Part shown: one piece after another, positions 33,268 to 39,915 of the stretch
How the letters are laid out: each line of letters opens with the position of its first letter
Position numbering within the stretch: position 1 is the stretch's first letter
NCBI GenBank assembly: GCA_013388855.1
Contig: JACAEM010000038.1
Span: 1-64,000 of the forward strand
DNA length: 64,000 nucleotides
Direction of reading: 5' to 3'
DNA from: Chloroflexota bacterium
GTDB lineage: Bacteria; Chloroflexota; Anaerolineae; Anaerolineales; Villigracilaceae
Notes under the pieces: model-generated
Databases searched by the model: none
Seen by the model: only the letters and a program-made list of their open reading frames with translations
Told to the model about the DNA's origin: nothing
Made by a program: the position numbers and the translations under genes

Positions 33268-33906
33268 TTACCTGCCTCGCAGGTATGAGATGATCGCCCC
33301 AAAAAGCCCAAATAACCCGAGGCTGAGGATGATCAAGCCGGTTGGGACGCCGATCCTTTCAGCGGGAGTGACATCCGTAAACAGAGGCACGTCAAGGGGC
33401 GGAGGAGGCGTGAATGTCGGCAAACGGGTGGGAGTCTGTTGACCGATAAAAGCCGCTTCGAGAGTTGGATTGATGGTCGGCGTCGAGTTGGGAGTCGGCG
33501 TGGGAGGAATCTCCACGATGGGGATAATGGCGCCTGGAGATAAATCAACGATATATAGCGCGTACACCCAGGCTGTCGAACCGGGTACGCCAGGATAATA
33601 GATCTGGAGCCAGTCGTCCTTGCCCTGTGCACGCCCAAGCACGTAAATGGTCTCATTCTCCAGCAGCACCCCGACAGGAAGATAATCAAAGGTGCTGGGT
33701 CCGGCATACACCAGGACACCCTGCCGAAGACTTGGGTCAACCCTTGCCGTGGGTCCAGACGGGGTGCCTGTAACCGTTGGGATGGAACCGGTCGGTTGCT
33801 GGGCGCGGACAATCTCCGGCACATCGAACCCAAAGCTTCCGAAGAACGCTAAAACAAATATTGCGATCAGTCCGATCACACTCTTTGTTTTATGTACGCC
33901 GTTCAT
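33268..33906 (-). CDS. secreted/membrane-anchored SH3b-like domain protein (paralogue 1)
   Basis: Signal-like N-terminus, SH3-like domain, PTPTPNSTPT linker, C-terminal TM anchor. Confidence 0.7.
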   Translation of the reverse strand: MNGVHKTKSVIGLIAIFVLAFFGSFGFDVPEIVRAQQPTGSIPTVTGTPSGPTARVDPSLRQGVLVYAGPSTFDYLPVGVLLENETIYVLGRAQGKDDWLQIYYPGVPGSTAWVYALYIVDLSPGAIIPIVEIPPTPTPNSTPTINPTLEAAFIGQQTPTRLPTFTPPPPLDVPLFTDVTPAERIGVPTGLIILSLGLFGLFGAIISYLRGR

Positions 33907-33912
33907 CTCCGT

Positions 33913-34506
33913 TCACTGCTTTCGTAGGATAAAAGAGATAATCAATCCAATCGAACCAATGACGCCAAGGCTGATTACGAAGATACCCGATGGAATCTTC
34001 GGGGTGTTCGCCGGGCTACCCTCTGTAAATTGAGGGACGGTCAAAGGCGGAGGAGGAGTAAACGTCGGCAAACGGGTCGGGGTCGGCTGAATGGTAAAGG
34101 CCGCCGCGAGTGTCGGGTCGAACGTCGCTGTGACCAACGGCGTCGGGGTAGGCGGCGGTTCCACGATACGAAGTTCCCCGCCGGAAATGGAGACGAACGA
34201 CGCATATACCCACCCCACTCCGCCTGCCCCGCCAGGGAACGAAATCTGAATCCATTCGCGCCCCGGCGAAACGCCCAAGGCGGGAATCACGTCACCCGGA
34301 AACAATTGTCCAATGATTGGGTAGAGGATGGTACTGGGTCCGCTGCGCACGTTGATGGGATCGGTGTACGTGACCGTAATAAAAACACCCGTTTGAGTGG
34401 GTGGATCCTGATACGCCCGGGCGTGATTCGGCGCTTGGAGCATCCCCACACCTAGCGCGGATACCGTCAACGCCCCCAAAACTGTCTTAAACAAAAATCG
34501 TTTCAT
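33913..34506 (-). CDS. secreted/membrane-anchored SH3b-like domain protein (paralogue 2)
   Basis: INVRSGPSTILYPIIGQLFPGDVIPALG SH3 motif; same Pro/Thr linker (LPTFTPPPPL) and TM anchor as neighbour. Confidence 0.75.
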   Translation of the reverse strand: MKRFLFKTVLGALTVSALGVGMLQAPNHARAYQDPPTQTGVFITVTYTDPINVRSGPSTILYPIIGQLFPGDVIPALGVSPGREWIQISFPGGAGGVGWVYASFVSISGGELRIVEPPPTPTPLVTATFDPTLAAAFTIQPTPTRLPTFTPPPPLTVPQFTEGSPANTPKIPSGIFVISLGVIGSIGLIISFILRKQ

Positions 34507-34579
34507 TGCGTAGATAGTCATATAAAGATGGGATAACGACGACAAGGTGTCGTCGCTCAAAAGGATTATAATCGAAAAC

Positions 34580-35164
34580 ATGGACAGGCGAATTTTTCAC
34601 GGAAACATCACACCGAATGACCTCGCACAGGCTTTAATGGCTGAGTTCAACCGCGGGAACCTGCATGCACAAGTGTTGGGAAACAAGGAAAAAATGGCTG
34701 TGCAGATCGCCACCCACGCAGGCGCCATGTCCGGCGGGCAGACTGCGCTTACCGTCACCATTCAAAAGTTCGAAGATGGAGTCATGGTGGAACTGGGTCA
34801 GCAGGCGTGGCTCGGAGTCGCTGCCAGCCTGGGTCGAACAGCCATATCGGCGCTTCGAAATCCTTTCAGCCTGCTCGGCAGGCTGGATGACCTTGCCCAG
34901 GACATCGAGAACATCCAACTTGGGGAAAGGGTTTGGACCGTTATCAATCGTGCAGTTGCCGCTCTGGGCGCATCCCATGCCCTCTCCGAGCGACTGGCGC
35001 GCGTCGCTTGCGAGTTTTGCGGTACGGGCAATCCGGTCGGCGAGGGTTCCTGTATCGCCTGTGGCGCGCCGCTGGGAGAGTACCACCCCACCACCTGCTC
35101 CAACTGTGGGTTTGTAGTTTACACGAAAGAGACATCTTGTCCGAACTGTCACAAGGCGCTCTAA
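34580..35164 (+). CDS. zinc-ribbon domain protein
   Basis: Two C-terminal CxxC pairs: CEFCGTGNPVGEGSCIACG and CSNCGFVVYTKETSCPNC. Confidence 0.75.
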   Translation: MDRRIFHGNITPNDLAQALMAEFNRGNLHAQVLGNKEKMAVQIATHAGAMSGGQTALTVTIQKFEDGVMVELGQQAWLGVAASLGRTAISALRNPFSLLGRLDDLAQDIENIQLGERVWTVINRAVAALGASHALSERLARVACEFCGTGNPVGEGSCIACGAPLGEYHPTTCSNCGFVVYTKETSCPNCHKAL

Positions 35165-35285
35165 GTTCGACTGATTCGAAAATATCTTCACACCAAAACT
35201 GAAAGCAAATTCTGTCTTGCAGTTTTTACGCCTCCCTTCTATAATACCTGTTATCTTTGTTCGGGCGATCAAGGTTTCAATAATT

Positions 35286-36155
35286 ATGAAGTTTAGTCTG
35301 GAACAACTGGAAGGAAAACTACAGTCTCTGGTTGAAGATCAACTGGTGGGTATTCTCCCAGGTTTGAAGTTAGAAGACCGGATGATCCATCGGCTGGCAA
35401 CGGCCCTCCAGCAAAACATCATTCAACAAAAGGATGAGGGGGCGATTGCGCCCAACGTCTTTACTTTGATCGTACCTACCAATTCGTCTCCCATGTGGAG
35501 GGAACAAAGCACGCTGGATGCCCTGAAAACCATCATCACACAGGCGGGAAAGGATATCGGGTTGAAATTCACTTCACAGCCAACCATTACGATCACCACA
35601 GACGACAGTTACGCCCCCGGGGAAATCGGTGTTGTGGCATCGCATAAACTGGAACCTGTTGCAGATACACAGGGTATGCAGCTCAACACGAACGACAATA
35701 TAGAAGCTGGTGACAACATCCCTGAGAATGCCTTCCTGATCATCGAGGGTGTGAAAGTGCATCCGTTGAACGAATCCGTTGTAAATATCGGGCGCAGGCT
35801 GGAAAATAGCCTGGTAATCGATGATCCGCGTGTATCGCGCAACCATGCCCAGCTCCGCGCCATCAAGGGACGGTTCGTGCTGTTCGACCTGAACTCCACT
35901 GGTGGCACCTTTGTGAATGGACAACGCACCAGCCAGACTGTGCTGTACCCGGGCGATGTGATTTCACTAGCCGGGGTTGCATTGATCTTCGGGCAGGACA
36001 ATCCCCCACCCCGCCCCGATTTGGTGGAAACGTCTCCTCTCAACGGCAGCGGGGACGTTGGAACAAGTGAGAGACCGACTGCCACAGTCAATCAACAACA
36101 AACGGTGGACATAAAAACAGACAGGCTTGACAAGAACAAATTCAATAATCGATGA
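35286..36155 (+). CDS. FhaA-like protein (DUF3662-like N-terminus plus FHA domain)
   Basis: N-terminal ~120 aa FhaA-type region; FHA motif VNIGRRLENSLVIDDPRVSRNHAQLRA..FVLFDLNSTGGTFVNG. Confidence 0.88.
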   Translation: MKFSLEQLEGKLQSLVEDQLVGILPGLKLEDRMIHRLATALQQNIIQQKDEGAIAPNVFTLIVPTNSSPMWREQSTLDALKTIITQAGKDIGLKFTSQPTITITTDDSYAPGEIGVVASHKLEPVADTQGMQLNTNDNIEAGDNIPENAFLIIEGVKVHPLNESVVNIGRRLENSLVIDDPRVSRNHAQLRAIKGRFVLFDLNSTGGTFVNGQRTSQTVLYPGDVISLAGVALIFGQDNPPPRPDLVETSPLNGSGDVGTSERPTATVNQQQTVDIKTDRLDKNKFNNR

Positions 36156-36634
36156 CTGCCACCATCGTCCTCGCCCTGCGGATCGCCATGGCGATTGCGC
36201 TGTATGTTTTTCTGGGGTGGGCGCTCCTAACCCTGTGGCAGGAACTCAGACAACAGGCGAACAATCTCGCAAGGCAAAAACACCCCAGGCTTGGTATCAC
36301 CTTTAGAACAGGGCAGGACCAGTTGATTCAAAACTGGTACACTGAAACCGAAATTACCATCGGACGCGACAGAAACTGTCACCTGCCCGTCACTGACGAA
36401 GCGGTCTCTGCTCACCATGCCCGTATCACTTTTCACCATGGTCAATGGTGGCTTGAGGATCTTGAATCCACAAACGGTACATACCTGAATAATGAGAAGC
36501 TATATGTCCCGACTGTTTTGATGACAGGAGACGAGTTCAAGTGCGGCGACACGTTGTTCGGTGTGCGTATTGAGAGCGAAACCAGCGATAAAATTTCTCC
36601 AACAAAAAGACTTGACACAGGAGGTCCGCCATGA
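36152..36634 (+). CDS. FhaB-like membrane-anchored FHA protein
   Basis: N-terminal TM; ITIGRDRNCHLPVTDEAVSAHHARITF..WWLEDLESTNGTYLN. Confidence 0.9.
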   Translation: MTATIVLALRIAMAIALYVFLGWALLTLWQELRQQANNLARQKHPRLGITFRTGQDQLIQNWYTETEITIGRDRNCHLPVTDEAVSAHHARITFHHGQWWLEDLESTNGTYLNNEKLYVPTVLMTGDEFKCGDTLFGVRIESETSDKISPTKRLDTGGPP

Positions 36635-37494
36635 CCGAGCATGCAACCCTTGCCGTCATCGGCGGTTCCGGGCTGTATGAAATGCCGGGACTGCAAGATA
36701 CGCGCGAATACAAGATCGATACCCCATTTGGCAAACCCAGCGCGCCCATTATCGTTGGCAAACTGGAGGGGGAAACGGTTGCATTTCTGGCGCGGCATGG
36801 AATCGGGCATCATCTCATGCCATCCGAGGTTCCCTATCGTGCGAATATTTATGCGCTGAAGTCGCTTGGCGTGGAACGTATCGTCAGCATCAGCGCTTGC
36901 GGCTCCTTGCAGGAGAATATCGCCCCGGGGCACATCGTCATACCCGACCAGGTATACGACCACACCCATGGACGGGCCCGCTCGTTTTTTGGAGACGGTC
37001 TTGTCGCCCATATCAGCACAGCAGACCCCTTTTGTGCGGATCTCTCCGATCAATTGGAATCAGCCGTCGGCTTGGCGGGAGGCGTGGTCCATCGCGGCGG
37101 CTCCTTCATCACAATCGAGGGTCCGCGATTTTCAACAAAAGCGGAATCGAACGCCTACCGCGCCTGGGGCATGTCCATCATCGGCATGACCGCATCTCCC
37201 GAAGTATTTCTGGCGCGCGAAGCGGAAATCTGTTACGCAACCATGGCGCATGTGACGGATTACGATGTATGGCATGTGAGCGAAAAACCCGTGACCGTGG
37301 AAATGGTGCTCCAAACCCTGAACCGAAACACCGAGATCGCTCAAAAAGCCGTGCAACTCCTGGCAGGAAACCTGAATCACCAGCGAAAATGTGAGTGTGG
37401 ACATGCACTAGCCTCAGCGTTGATTACTCGCAAAGATGTCATCCCGCCCGAAACCCGCCAGAGGCTGGATCTGTTGTTAAATAAATATCTATAA
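36631..37494 (+). CDS. mtnP: S-methyl-5'-thioadenosine phosphorylase
   Basis: VIGGSGLYEMPGL, FLARHGIGHHLMPSEVPYRANIYALK, ISACGSLQENIAPGHIVIPDQ, GMTASPEVFLAREAEICYATMAHVTDYDVW. Confidence 0.95.
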   Translation: MTEHATLAVIGGSGLYEMPGLQDTREYKIDTPFGKPSAPIIVGKLEGETVAFLARHGIGHHLMPSEVPYRANIYALKSLGVERIVSISACGSLQENIAPGHIVIPDQVYDHTHGRARSFFGDGLVAHISTADPFCADLSDQLESAVGLAGGVVHRGGSFITIEGPRFSTKAESNAYRAWGMSIIGMTASPEVFLAREAEICYATMAHVTDYDVWHVSEKPVTVEMVLQTLNRNTEIAQKAVQLLAGNLNHQRKCECGHALASALITRKDVIPPETRQRLDLLLNKYL

Positions 37495-39915
37495 ATGAAT
37501 CGAATCGTTCAGGGAAATCTCCTGAAAATAGCGGCGGGGTTTCTATTTCTCCAGGCACTTATCACCACCTTGTCACCCGCCGTCTGGGTGCGGTCATTGG
37601 ACACAAGTTTGCGCTGGCCGCACTGGATTGCATTTGCGGTCTGGTGTCTGGCAGTCGTGATCGCACATCGGCTTATCTTCAGACACATTCCCGAAACAGA
37701 TCCCTATCTCTTCCCTGCCGCCGCCCTCTTGAGCGGATGGGGGCTTCTCACCATTTGGAGGCTCGACCCGGAAAACGGTGCGCGTCAGACGCTTTGGCTG
37801 ACCCTCGCCCTTATCACTTTTTTATTCGGGCTGCGCCTTCCAGCCAGCCTCGACTTCCTAAAAAAATATAAATACCTGCTTCTTACAGGCGGAATGCTGC
37901 TGACCGGGCTGACCCTCTTCTTTGGGACAAACCCCACCGGATACGGCCCGCGCCTTTGGCTTAGTTGCTGTGGGTTCTATTTCCAGCCATCCGAACCGCT
38001 AAAGCTCCTGCTCGTCACCTACCTTTCCGCGTACCTTGCAGACCGCATCCCGATTCGCCTGCGGACATTCCCATTGATCTACCCCACATTGGTCTTAATC
38101 GGTTTCGCGGTCATGCTCCTCGTCTTTCAACGCGACCTTGGAACTGCCTCCATTTTCATTGCCCTCTACACAATCATCATCTACCTGGGCACAGGCCGCA
38201 GGGAAGTAATCGTCACCAGCGCCTTTTTGCTCATTCTCGTTGCGGCGGGCGGCTATTATTTCGTCGACATCATCCAAACACGATTCGATTCATGGCTGAA
38301 TCCCTGGGCAGACCCGCAGGGAGGCTCATATCAAATTGTCCAATCCCTTCTCGCAGTCGCGAACGGAGGCGTGGAGGGACGCGGGCCCGGCTTGGGGAAT
38401 CCCGGTTTCGTGCCGGTCGCCATATCGGATTTCATCTACGCAGCCATTGCGGAAGAAACGGGTCTAATCGGGACCCTGGGGTTGCTCGCCGCCATTGGGT
38501 TGATCATTGCCCGAGGTTTGCGCGTCTCCCTGCGCGCCCCGGACCTCTTCCGACGGCTGCTCGCGGCCGGGATCACGGCATATTTCGGCATTCAGTCGAT
38601 ATTGATCATCGGAGGAAATCTACGCTTCCTGCCGCTGACCGGCGTAACTCTGCCGTTCATGTCGTATGGCGGCTCATCGCTGCTGACATCCTATATCGCC
38701 CTGCTGTTCCTCCTGCTTATCAGTAATAACATGGATGAAGAACCTGCGCAGTTGACAAATCCGTTTCCCTATACGTCCCTCAGCGCGCTGTTAGCTGTCG
38801 GCTTGTTCATGACCGCATTAACAAATGGGTGGTGGTCGGTTGTTCGCGGTCCCGACCTGCTCACCCGCTCCGATAATTCACGGCGCACCGTCGAAGACCG
38901 CTATGTGAAGCGCGGAAGCATCCTTGACCGGTCAAACACCGAAATCAACATCACCGAAGGGAATGCGGGGGGGTATATCAGGGTCTATCAATATCCCGCC
39001 CTTGCCCCCGTGGTCGGATACAACCATCCCAGGTATGGGCAGGCTGGTCTTGAGGCGACTTTTGACGATTACCTGCGCGGGCTCAAAGGAAATCCAGCTA
39101 CCGCGGTGTGGTGGGATCAGTTGGTGTATGGCACCAATCCTCCCGGTTTGGACGTACGATTGAGTCTCGATCTGCCCTTGCAGGCGCGTGCAGATGAGAG
39201 GCTGGCAGACAAGACGGGCGCTGTCATATTGCTTAACGCACAGACTGGCGAGATCCTTGTCATGGCGTCGCACCCTACTTTTGATCCCAACGCTCTCGAT
39301 GAGATTGGCCCTTCACTGAAGGATGATTCCGGTAAACCTCTTATCAACCGCGCCGCGATGGGATTGTACCCGGCAGGTTCATTGCTTGCTCCGTTCAAAC
39401 AAATGTTGAACATCAACGAAAATTCTGGTGCGGGGGAATTACAAAGGGTGTATGAAACCTTCAGACTCGACAGCGCTCCTGCCATCCAAATGCAGGTGGC
39501 GGAGGGGGGCTCCACCCCAGAATTGGAGCATTTCCATGTGTCTCCGTTGCAGGTGGCGCTGGCATCTTCCGCGTTGAGCAATCATGGCATGATTCCTGCG
39601 CCAATGATTGCGTCCGCGGTTAACACGCCGAATGATGGCTGGGTGGTTCTATCAGCCGCGGGGATGCCGGTTGAAGCGGTACAACCGTCGGCGGCGGATG
39701 AGGCGGCAACTGCTCTGACAAGAGAGGGGGATGGCTACTGGTCGCACATCGCAGAGACAACCGAAAAGGATGTGACAGTCACATGGTACATGGCGGGAAC
39801 TCCGCCCAACTGGCAGGCGTCGCCGCTGGTTGTGGTCGTATTGCTCGAGGAAAGGAATACGTATCTGGCAGAAAGAATCGGCGCGGAATTGCTACTGAGT
39901 GCGATGAATCCATAA
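37495..39915 (+). CDS. SEDS (RodA/FtsW-like) glycosyltransferase fused to a degenerate penicillin-binding-protein domain
   Basis: SEDS motifs GYGPRLWLSCCGFYFQPSEPLKL and ISDFIYAAIAEETGLIGTLGLL; C-terminal PBP-like RGSILDRSNTEI, LSLDLPLQARADERL, GAVILLNAQTGEILVMASHPTFDPN, HVSPLQVALASSALSNHG. Confidence 0.88.
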   Translation: MNRIVQGNLLKIAAGFLFLQALITTLSPAVWVRSLDTSLRWPHWIAFAVWCLAVVIAHRLIFRHIPETDPYLFPAAALLSGWGLLTIWRLDPENGARQTLWLTLALITFLFGLRLPASLDFLKKYKYLLLTGGMLLTGLTLFFGTNPTGYGPRLWLSCCGFYFQPSEPLKLLLVTYLSAYLADRIPIRLRTFPLIYPTLVLIGFAVMLLVFQRDLGTASIFIALYTIIIYLGTGRREVIVTSAFLLILVAAGGYYFVDIIQTRFDSWLNPWADPQGGSYQIVQSLLAVANGGVEGRGPGLGNPGFVPVAISDFIYAAIAEETGLIGTLGLLAAIGLIIARGLRVSLRAPDLFRRLLAAGITAYFGIQSILIIGGNLRFLPLTGVTLPFMSYGGSSLLTSYIALLFLLLISNNMDEEPAQLTNPFPYTSLSALLAVGLFMTALTNGWWSVVRGPDLLTRSDNSRRTVEDRYVKRGSILDRSNTEINITEGNAGGYIRVYQYPALAPVVGYNHPRYGQAGLEATFDDYLRGLKGNPATAVWWDQLVYGTNPPGLDVRLSLDLPLQARADERLADKTGAVILLNAQTGEILVMASHPTFDPNALDEIGPSLKDDSGKPLINRAAMGLYPAGSLLAPFKQMLNINENSGAGELQRVYETFRLDSAPAIQMQVAEGGSTPELEHFHVSPLQVALASSALSNHGMIPAPMIASAVNTPNDGWVVLSAAGMPVEAVQPSAADEAATALTREGDGYWSHIAETTEKDVTVTWYMAGTPPNWQASPLVVVVLLEERNTYLAERIGAELLLSAMNP

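Follow-up and report, generated by a model that had tools for sequence, protein, structure and literature searches.

A natural SEDS-PBP fusion of an Anaerolineae lineage with a PbpA-type partner predicted to have lost transpeptidase activity

Results

The fusion gene and its neighbours

The DNA analysed (the window) was a stretch of 64,000 nucleotides, positions 1 to 64,000 of contig JACAEM010000038.1, from a Chloroflexota genome of the class Anaerolineae (assembly GCA_013388855.1; 4.03 Mb, 99% complete). The original prediction placed a SEDS protein and a class B penicillin-binding protein (PBP) of this genome in one chain. The open reading frame was found at exactly that position, and its two halves matched PF01098 and PF21922, respectively (Table 1).

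Table 1. Features of the fusion gene and of the genes upstream of it
Feature	Position in window	Strand	Basis
Zinc-ribbon protein, start of co-directional block	34547..35164	+	DZR 4.8e-06, just under cut-off
FhaA-like FHA protein, weak FhaA_N plus FHA domain	35217..36155	+	PF00498 4e-19; PF12401 0.0026, below cut-off
FhaB-like FHA protein	36152..36634	+	PF00498 1.6e-19; NF049868 2.6e-24, below cut-off
Methylthioadenosine phosphorylase gene (MTAP, mtnP), directly upstream of fusion	36631..37494	+	TIGR01694 above cut-off
SEDS/pseudo-PbpA fusion gene	37495..39915	+	806 aa, one uninterrupted ORF; begins right after mtnP stop codon
SEDS polymerase core, residues 69-412	37699..38730	+	PF01098 1e-69; Foldseek match to FtsW 8p1u_A, TMt 0.78
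Asp312, catalytic SEDS Asp	38428..38430	+	Alignment to T. thermophilus RodA
Linker, residues 411-423, last SEDS helix to PBP membrane helix	38725..38763	+	Secondary structure of model; 13 residues
Class B PBP membrane helix, residues 424-450	38764..38844	+	Model; still present after fusion
PbpA-type pedestal/dimerisation domain (PBP_dimer_2), residues 473-553	38911..39153	+	PF21922 4.1e-07
Transpeptidase remnant, residues 575-806	39217..39912	+	Alpha/beta core kept, shortened
S629-L-L-A632 at SxxK position	39379..39390	+	Lys to Ala (alignment with intact relatives)
H751-I-A753 at KTG position	39745..39753	+	Alignment with intact relatives

The FHA domains of both upstream proteins scored above the Pfam cut-off, and their matches to the FhaA- and FhaB-specific models fell below theirs. 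By synteny, many relatives with a dead or an intact PBP had the MTAP gene adjacent to the SEDS gene, and the order FHA-MTAP-SEDS-PBP, whole or partial, recurred in both kinds. A profile search found no PASTA domain, as in the PknB kinase, in the source genome.

Divergent from this block lay two adjacent genes (33268-33906 and 33913-34581, both on the - strand) whose products resemble each other, each having an SH3-type domain and a hydrophobic helix at the C terminus. The SH3-type domain was above the Pfam cut-off in one of them.

The SEDS half

The SEDS half scored 235.7 bits in the PF01098 profile search (cut-off, 26.4). The fusion protein fell below both NCBIfam equivalog cut-offs, with scores of 234.3 versus 337.5 for ftsW and 204.4 versus 336.7 for rodA. 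The SEDS half is of the RodA type.

Residues 2-64 formed two additional N-terminal helices in the AlphaFold model, giving 12 SEDS membrane helices in total. Asp312 aligned with the residue that is D in one and A in the other of the two T. thermophilus RodA structures 6bar and 6bas. Its counterpart in E. coli RodA is D262, the essential SEDS Asp. Asp312 was invariant in all 57 lineage rows having that column and in 20 of 20 further loci, as expected from the earlier claim that the conserved Asp is kept. We infer from the sequence that the SEDS half may polymerise lipid II into glycan.

The model of the whole fusion (mean pLDDT 94.2, pTM 0.89) ran from the SEDS helices through the linker and the membrane helix of the PBP to the pedestal, and ended in an alpha/beta transpeptidase core of reduced size. 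The junction of the two halves appeared as a clean succession of membrane helix, linker and membrane helix.

Retained and lost parts of the PBP half

The pedestal scored 30.6 bits in the profile search with PF21922 (cut-off, 27). R473, G474, R496, G508, G515, E520, L527 and G529 were 100% conserved in the lineage rows. Y498, G518 and R528 of the pedestal were conserved at 96-98%, and W447 in the membrane helix at 98%. Pedestal residues such as R473 and G474 were thus kept, in agreement with the predicted retention of scaffold segments.

The best PDB matches of the fusion in Foldseek were PbpA-type enzymes (TMt 0.61-0.67). The intact outgroup protein L123, used as a control of the method, gave 0.86-0.91 with the same structures and 0.86-0.88 with M. 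tuberculosis PbpA. Comparison with both RodA-PBP2 and mycobacterial RodA/PbpA had been proposed. The mycobacterial part of the proposal was borne out by PF21922 and the fold matches, but PBP2 is not the closest kin of the PBP half; mycobacterial PbpA is.

The transpeptidase domain was incomplete, the best PF00905 stretch covering the first 45 of 299 profile positions. Each of the three motif losses read from the sequence earlier was recovered by alignment with intact relatives. The Lys of SxxK was replaced by Ala, the SxN segment was absent with the deletion of the helical lobe, and the KTG region was altered. A literal KTG at residue 573 lay off the KTG position, and its Lys was not conserved.

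The segment from SxxK to SPLQ was shortened from a median of 119 residues in the intact rows to 49 in the fusion. Families f4 and f16/f41, which stood apart on the SEDS tree, had a short segment as well.

In the alignment of the intact outgroup (22 sequences), S213, K216, S269, N271 and KTG (L123 numbering) were all invariant. The catalytic motifs were lost in 89 of 89 relatives counted in the Anaerolineae lineage (69 tree rows and 20 further loci, a few possibly being one species under two names). Because all these relatives shared the loss and the outgroup motifs were invariant, the loss is not down to chance. By its motifs, the transpeptidase half of the fusion is predicted to be catalytically dead.

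Selection on the three parts of the protein was estimated from pairs close enough to measure. The dN/dS values were 0.11-0.25 for the remnant, 0.07-0.20 for the pedestal and 0.07-0.15 for the SEDS half. The transpeptidase remnant is under purifying selection, and in each of these pairs it evolved faster than the SEDS half.

Distribution of the dead state

The fusion was full length in all same-family genomes searched, with 54-61% identity where the whole protein was compared. Independent full-length relatives were present in 14 other genomes of the family and at further contig loci. Across the order, a clear homologue was found in 79 of 121 genomes, about 65 of them (counted by hand) in open frames of at least 800 aa. 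All 20 order-wide loci that were read had a dead PBP and kept Asp312. These relatives in the family and the order ruled out a one-off event in the source genome.

Homologues read across the phylum outside the lineage were intact and nearly all unfused. Dead but unfused partners occurred in families f16, f20, f22, f35, f41, f46 and f48, and at L249-L251.

The natural fusion with a dead transpeptidase, which had been singled out as the notable part, was real in both fusion and motif loss, but it was not a single case: it is old and lineage-wide, and the loss most likely preceded the fusion. The original prediction was correct, and it understated the case.

In another family of the phylum, locus L196 (2156-5056, - strand, G326) encodes a 967-aa SEDS-PBP fusion in which SxxK, SxN and KTG are all present. 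Fusion thus does not require loss. A 380-aa PBP with KTGTAQ and without SxxK or SxN (L122, G006) adjoins the intact sister L123; its state is either a recent loss or an assembly gap.

Order of loss and fusion

A tree of 102 rows was built on the SEDS half alone by a quick method, with a rooting of our choice. Of the 69 dead rows, 68 formed one group (SH-aLRT 94), beside the L123 family with its intact, unfused pair. L192 was the sole dead row outside the main group, with weak support, and for this reason the tree counted two losses.

A single clade of all 69 dead rows was not rejected (p-AU 0.42), and several independent losses are not required. The SEDS tree needed one or two losses versus about six changes between the fused and the separate state, an approximate count, since frameshifts in metagenome assemblies may account for some of the separate frames.

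Among the 42 dead rows keeping the helical segment, 35 had the SxN Asn replaced by Pro (the C-P motif); L192 was one of them, and some were duplicate loci. As a derived trait, the shared C-P motif fits one ancestral loss.

With one or two losses against about six changes of fusion state, and with dead partners commonly unfused, the likeliest order is that a separate PBP first lost catalysis and that fusion followed, more than once. Fusion as the general cause of the loss was ruled out by the unfused dead partners.

The dead fusion at L192 (2470-5130, - strand, G208) is 887 aa long and belongs to a genome not included in the class sample. Its position may reflect transfer, an independent loss or weak placement.

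Other wall enzymes of the source genome

Two further SEDS genes were found in the source genome, a dcw FtsW between MurD-like and MurG-like genes and a RodA beside MinD, all neighbours being named from their sequence. A survey for a separate active class B PBP had been suggested; the genome has one intact FtsI/SpoVD-type and two intact PBP2-type enzymes, as judged from motifs. Since the genome already has these SEDS and class B enzymes, the fusion makes a third, specialised pair.

The genome also has two intact class A PBPs and seven YkuD domains (L,D-transpeptidases). One of the seven L,D-transpeptidases lies in the window (48182-49240, - strand; YkuD 6.4e-22).

By family median, dead families had more L,D-transpeptidases than intact ones (Mann-Whitney p 0.033; medians read by hand, few families, no correction for kinship). 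The link between the dead state and this number is only suggestive.

At locus L008 (G000:C4, about 143112-146007, + strand), a class A PBP with a GT51 domain had SSLD, NDYP and KLG at the three transpeptidase motifs, i.e. a dead transpeptidase. L213, 62% identical to L008, was also dead; the other 18 aligned homologues from the class were intact. L008 is a second polymerase-linked pseudo-transpeptidase of this family. Together with the dead fusion, it may mark a shift of cross-linking to L,D-transpeptidases.

Discussion

We interpreted the locus, with a probability of roughly 0.6, as a third SEDS-class B PBP pair of the RodA/PbpA type, in which the PBP lost its chemistry early, was kept as a structural or regulatory partner, and was then fused to the polymerase in several sub-lineages. 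Transpeptidase chemistry would have been lost early in an Anaerolineae lineage, in a separate protein, and the two genes would have been joined later in several sub-lineages, that of the source genome included. The SEDS half would build glycan from lipid II. It would be held or switched active by the rest of the chain (PBP membrane helix, pedestal and shrunken pseudo-transpeptidase), as RodA is by the pedestal and opening of PBP2. Cross-links would come from other enzymes, namely the seven L,D-transpeptidases or the intact PBPs (FtsI-type, PBP2-type and class A). The FHA proteins encoded upstream may recruit or regulate the fusion. Of this scheme, the data show the architecture, the motif loss, the conservation, the phylogeny and the presence of the other enzymes; that the SEDS half polymerises, that it is activated in cis, that labour is divided between enzymes and that FHA proteins regulate the fusion is what we infer.

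The reading of the PBP half as a built-in, non-catalytic activator or scaffold draws, by analogy, on published work on FtsW, RodA-PBP2 and PBP1/PBP2B. FtsW is active only with its class B PBP (Taguchi 2019, as cited in PMC9426605), and RodA is activated by changes in PBP2 and by PBP2 opening (PMC6207328, PMC10257715). In S. aureus PBP1 and B. subtilis PBP2B, non-catalytic functions persist without activity (PMC9426605). These dead mutants resemble the fusion in that the role of the class B PBP outlasts catalysis; they differ in being laboratory mutants and not lineage-wide.

The proposed role of 'obligate allosteric activator' would be one form of this reading. Against an activator counts the deletion of the helical lobe, which removes part of the domain that moves in PBP2 activation. 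A dead partner could equally well restrain the polymerase. The below-cut-off FhaA and FhaB matches and the PASTA domain not found in the genome are further points against our best explanation. We tentatively propose, at somewhat less than even odds, that a dedicated SEDS polymerase has been retained throughout the lineage together with a class B PBP that, as an ancient pseudoenzyme, serves only as activator in cis. The activating role would then be separable from cross-linking and able to persist alone.

Among known systems, mycobacterial RodA-PbpA (M. tuberculosis) shares with the locus the PF21922 domain, the PbpA fold match, rodA beside pbpA, and FHA genes upstream. The M. tuberculosis order is fhaA-fhaB-pstP-rodA-pbpA-pknA-pknB (PMC6554272), and the FHA-MTAP-SEDS-PBP order is similar to this actinobacterial arrangement. 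In contrast, the source genome has a single chain with no catalytic motif, MTAP where pstP stands, and no PASTA domain found. RodA-PBP2 and FtsW-FtsI of E. coli, T. thermophilus and P. aeruginosa likewise combine a SEDS protein having the essential Asp with a class B PBP helix, pedestal and transpeptidase fold, but their transpeptidase is active and on a separate chain.

An engineered RodA-PBP2 fusion, an active polymerase, also links a SEDS polymerase and a class B PBP in one chain; on the other hand, it is man-made, has a GGGSx3 linker, and its transpeptidase half still binds Bocillin (PMC6207328). Bifunctional class A PBPs carry a polymerase and a PBP fold on one chain as well, but their GT51 polymerase is unrelated to SEDS and their transpeptidase is normally active.

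The SEDS half might instead make a glycan meant to stay uncross-linked, or polymerise another lipid-linked substrate, thereby freeing the PBP from catalysis. This would agree with the dedicated partner lacking cross-linking chemistry in every lineage member sampled, and with the two other SEDS genes and their intact partner PBPs covering ordinary wall synthesis. The SEDS core residues, however, are the same as in ordinary RodA and FtsW. PbpA still looks active in sister lineages that share the gene neighbourhood, and the ancestral product was thus probably ordinary peptidoglycan. We consider this alternative unlikely.

A little less probable is a dead PBP half that acts mainly as an inhibitor or sensor, keeping the polymerase shut until a signal arrives, e.g. 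through the FHA proteins or through substrate in the dead cleft. The still folded transpeptidase core under purifying selection and the FHA genes upstream in many relatives would be expected of such a device. The class B PBP of known pairs, however, is needed for activity, not restraint, and the faster evolution of the remnant in all measured pairs also argues against it.

Continued transpeptidase activity through a relocated Ser/Lys pair would require residues of which we saw little sign, although the fold core is kept and S629 is present. A string search of the PBP half found no SxxK in residues 431-806. S629 itself is variable: the SxxK columns are free in the lineage, with A, T, L, G, S, D, P, M or E at the S position and Q, E, T, R and others at the K position. 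No Lys of residues 555-806 reached 90% conservation in the 20 closest rows, and the helical lobe is deleted. These results make a relocated pair very improbable.

Pseudogenisation under way or an assembly error, for which nothing speaks beyond the missing motifs, can be dismissed in view of the independent full-length relatives (14 other same-family genomes and contig loci), the remnant dN/dS of 0.11-0.25, the pLDDT of 94 and the conserved neighbourhood.

Under the preferred reading of an early loss with a retained partner, the fusion would have the same parts as a SEDS-class B PBP synthase, one of them an ancient pseudoenzyme, fused repeatedly. It would be an unusual natural split of activation from cross-linking, and not a new kind of system. 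The need of SEDS proteins for a class B PBP beyond cross-linking has so far been argued from mutants; here evolution would have run the experiment. The chemistry appears gone, the pedestal and the fold are kept, and fusion has tied the two proteins together. With a SEDS synthase that consists of one chain and by nature does not cross-link, activation could be studied in isolation from transpeptidation. Such an enzyme would also be a wall polymerase that itself lacks a beta-lactam site.

SEDS-PBP fusions have received brief mention in other work. Our literature search on natural SEDS-PBP fusions, pseudo-transpeptidases and Chloroflexota wall synthesis, mostly in sources other than subscription journals, found no description of such a fusion. 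It found no biochemistry on any member of the dead family.

Elsewhere in the window (46037-48153, + strand), the gene of a DNA methylase (PF01555) precedes that of a 183-aa protein, which is similar to the C-terminal part of the methylase and matched no Pfam family. The two are possibly a restriction-modification pair.
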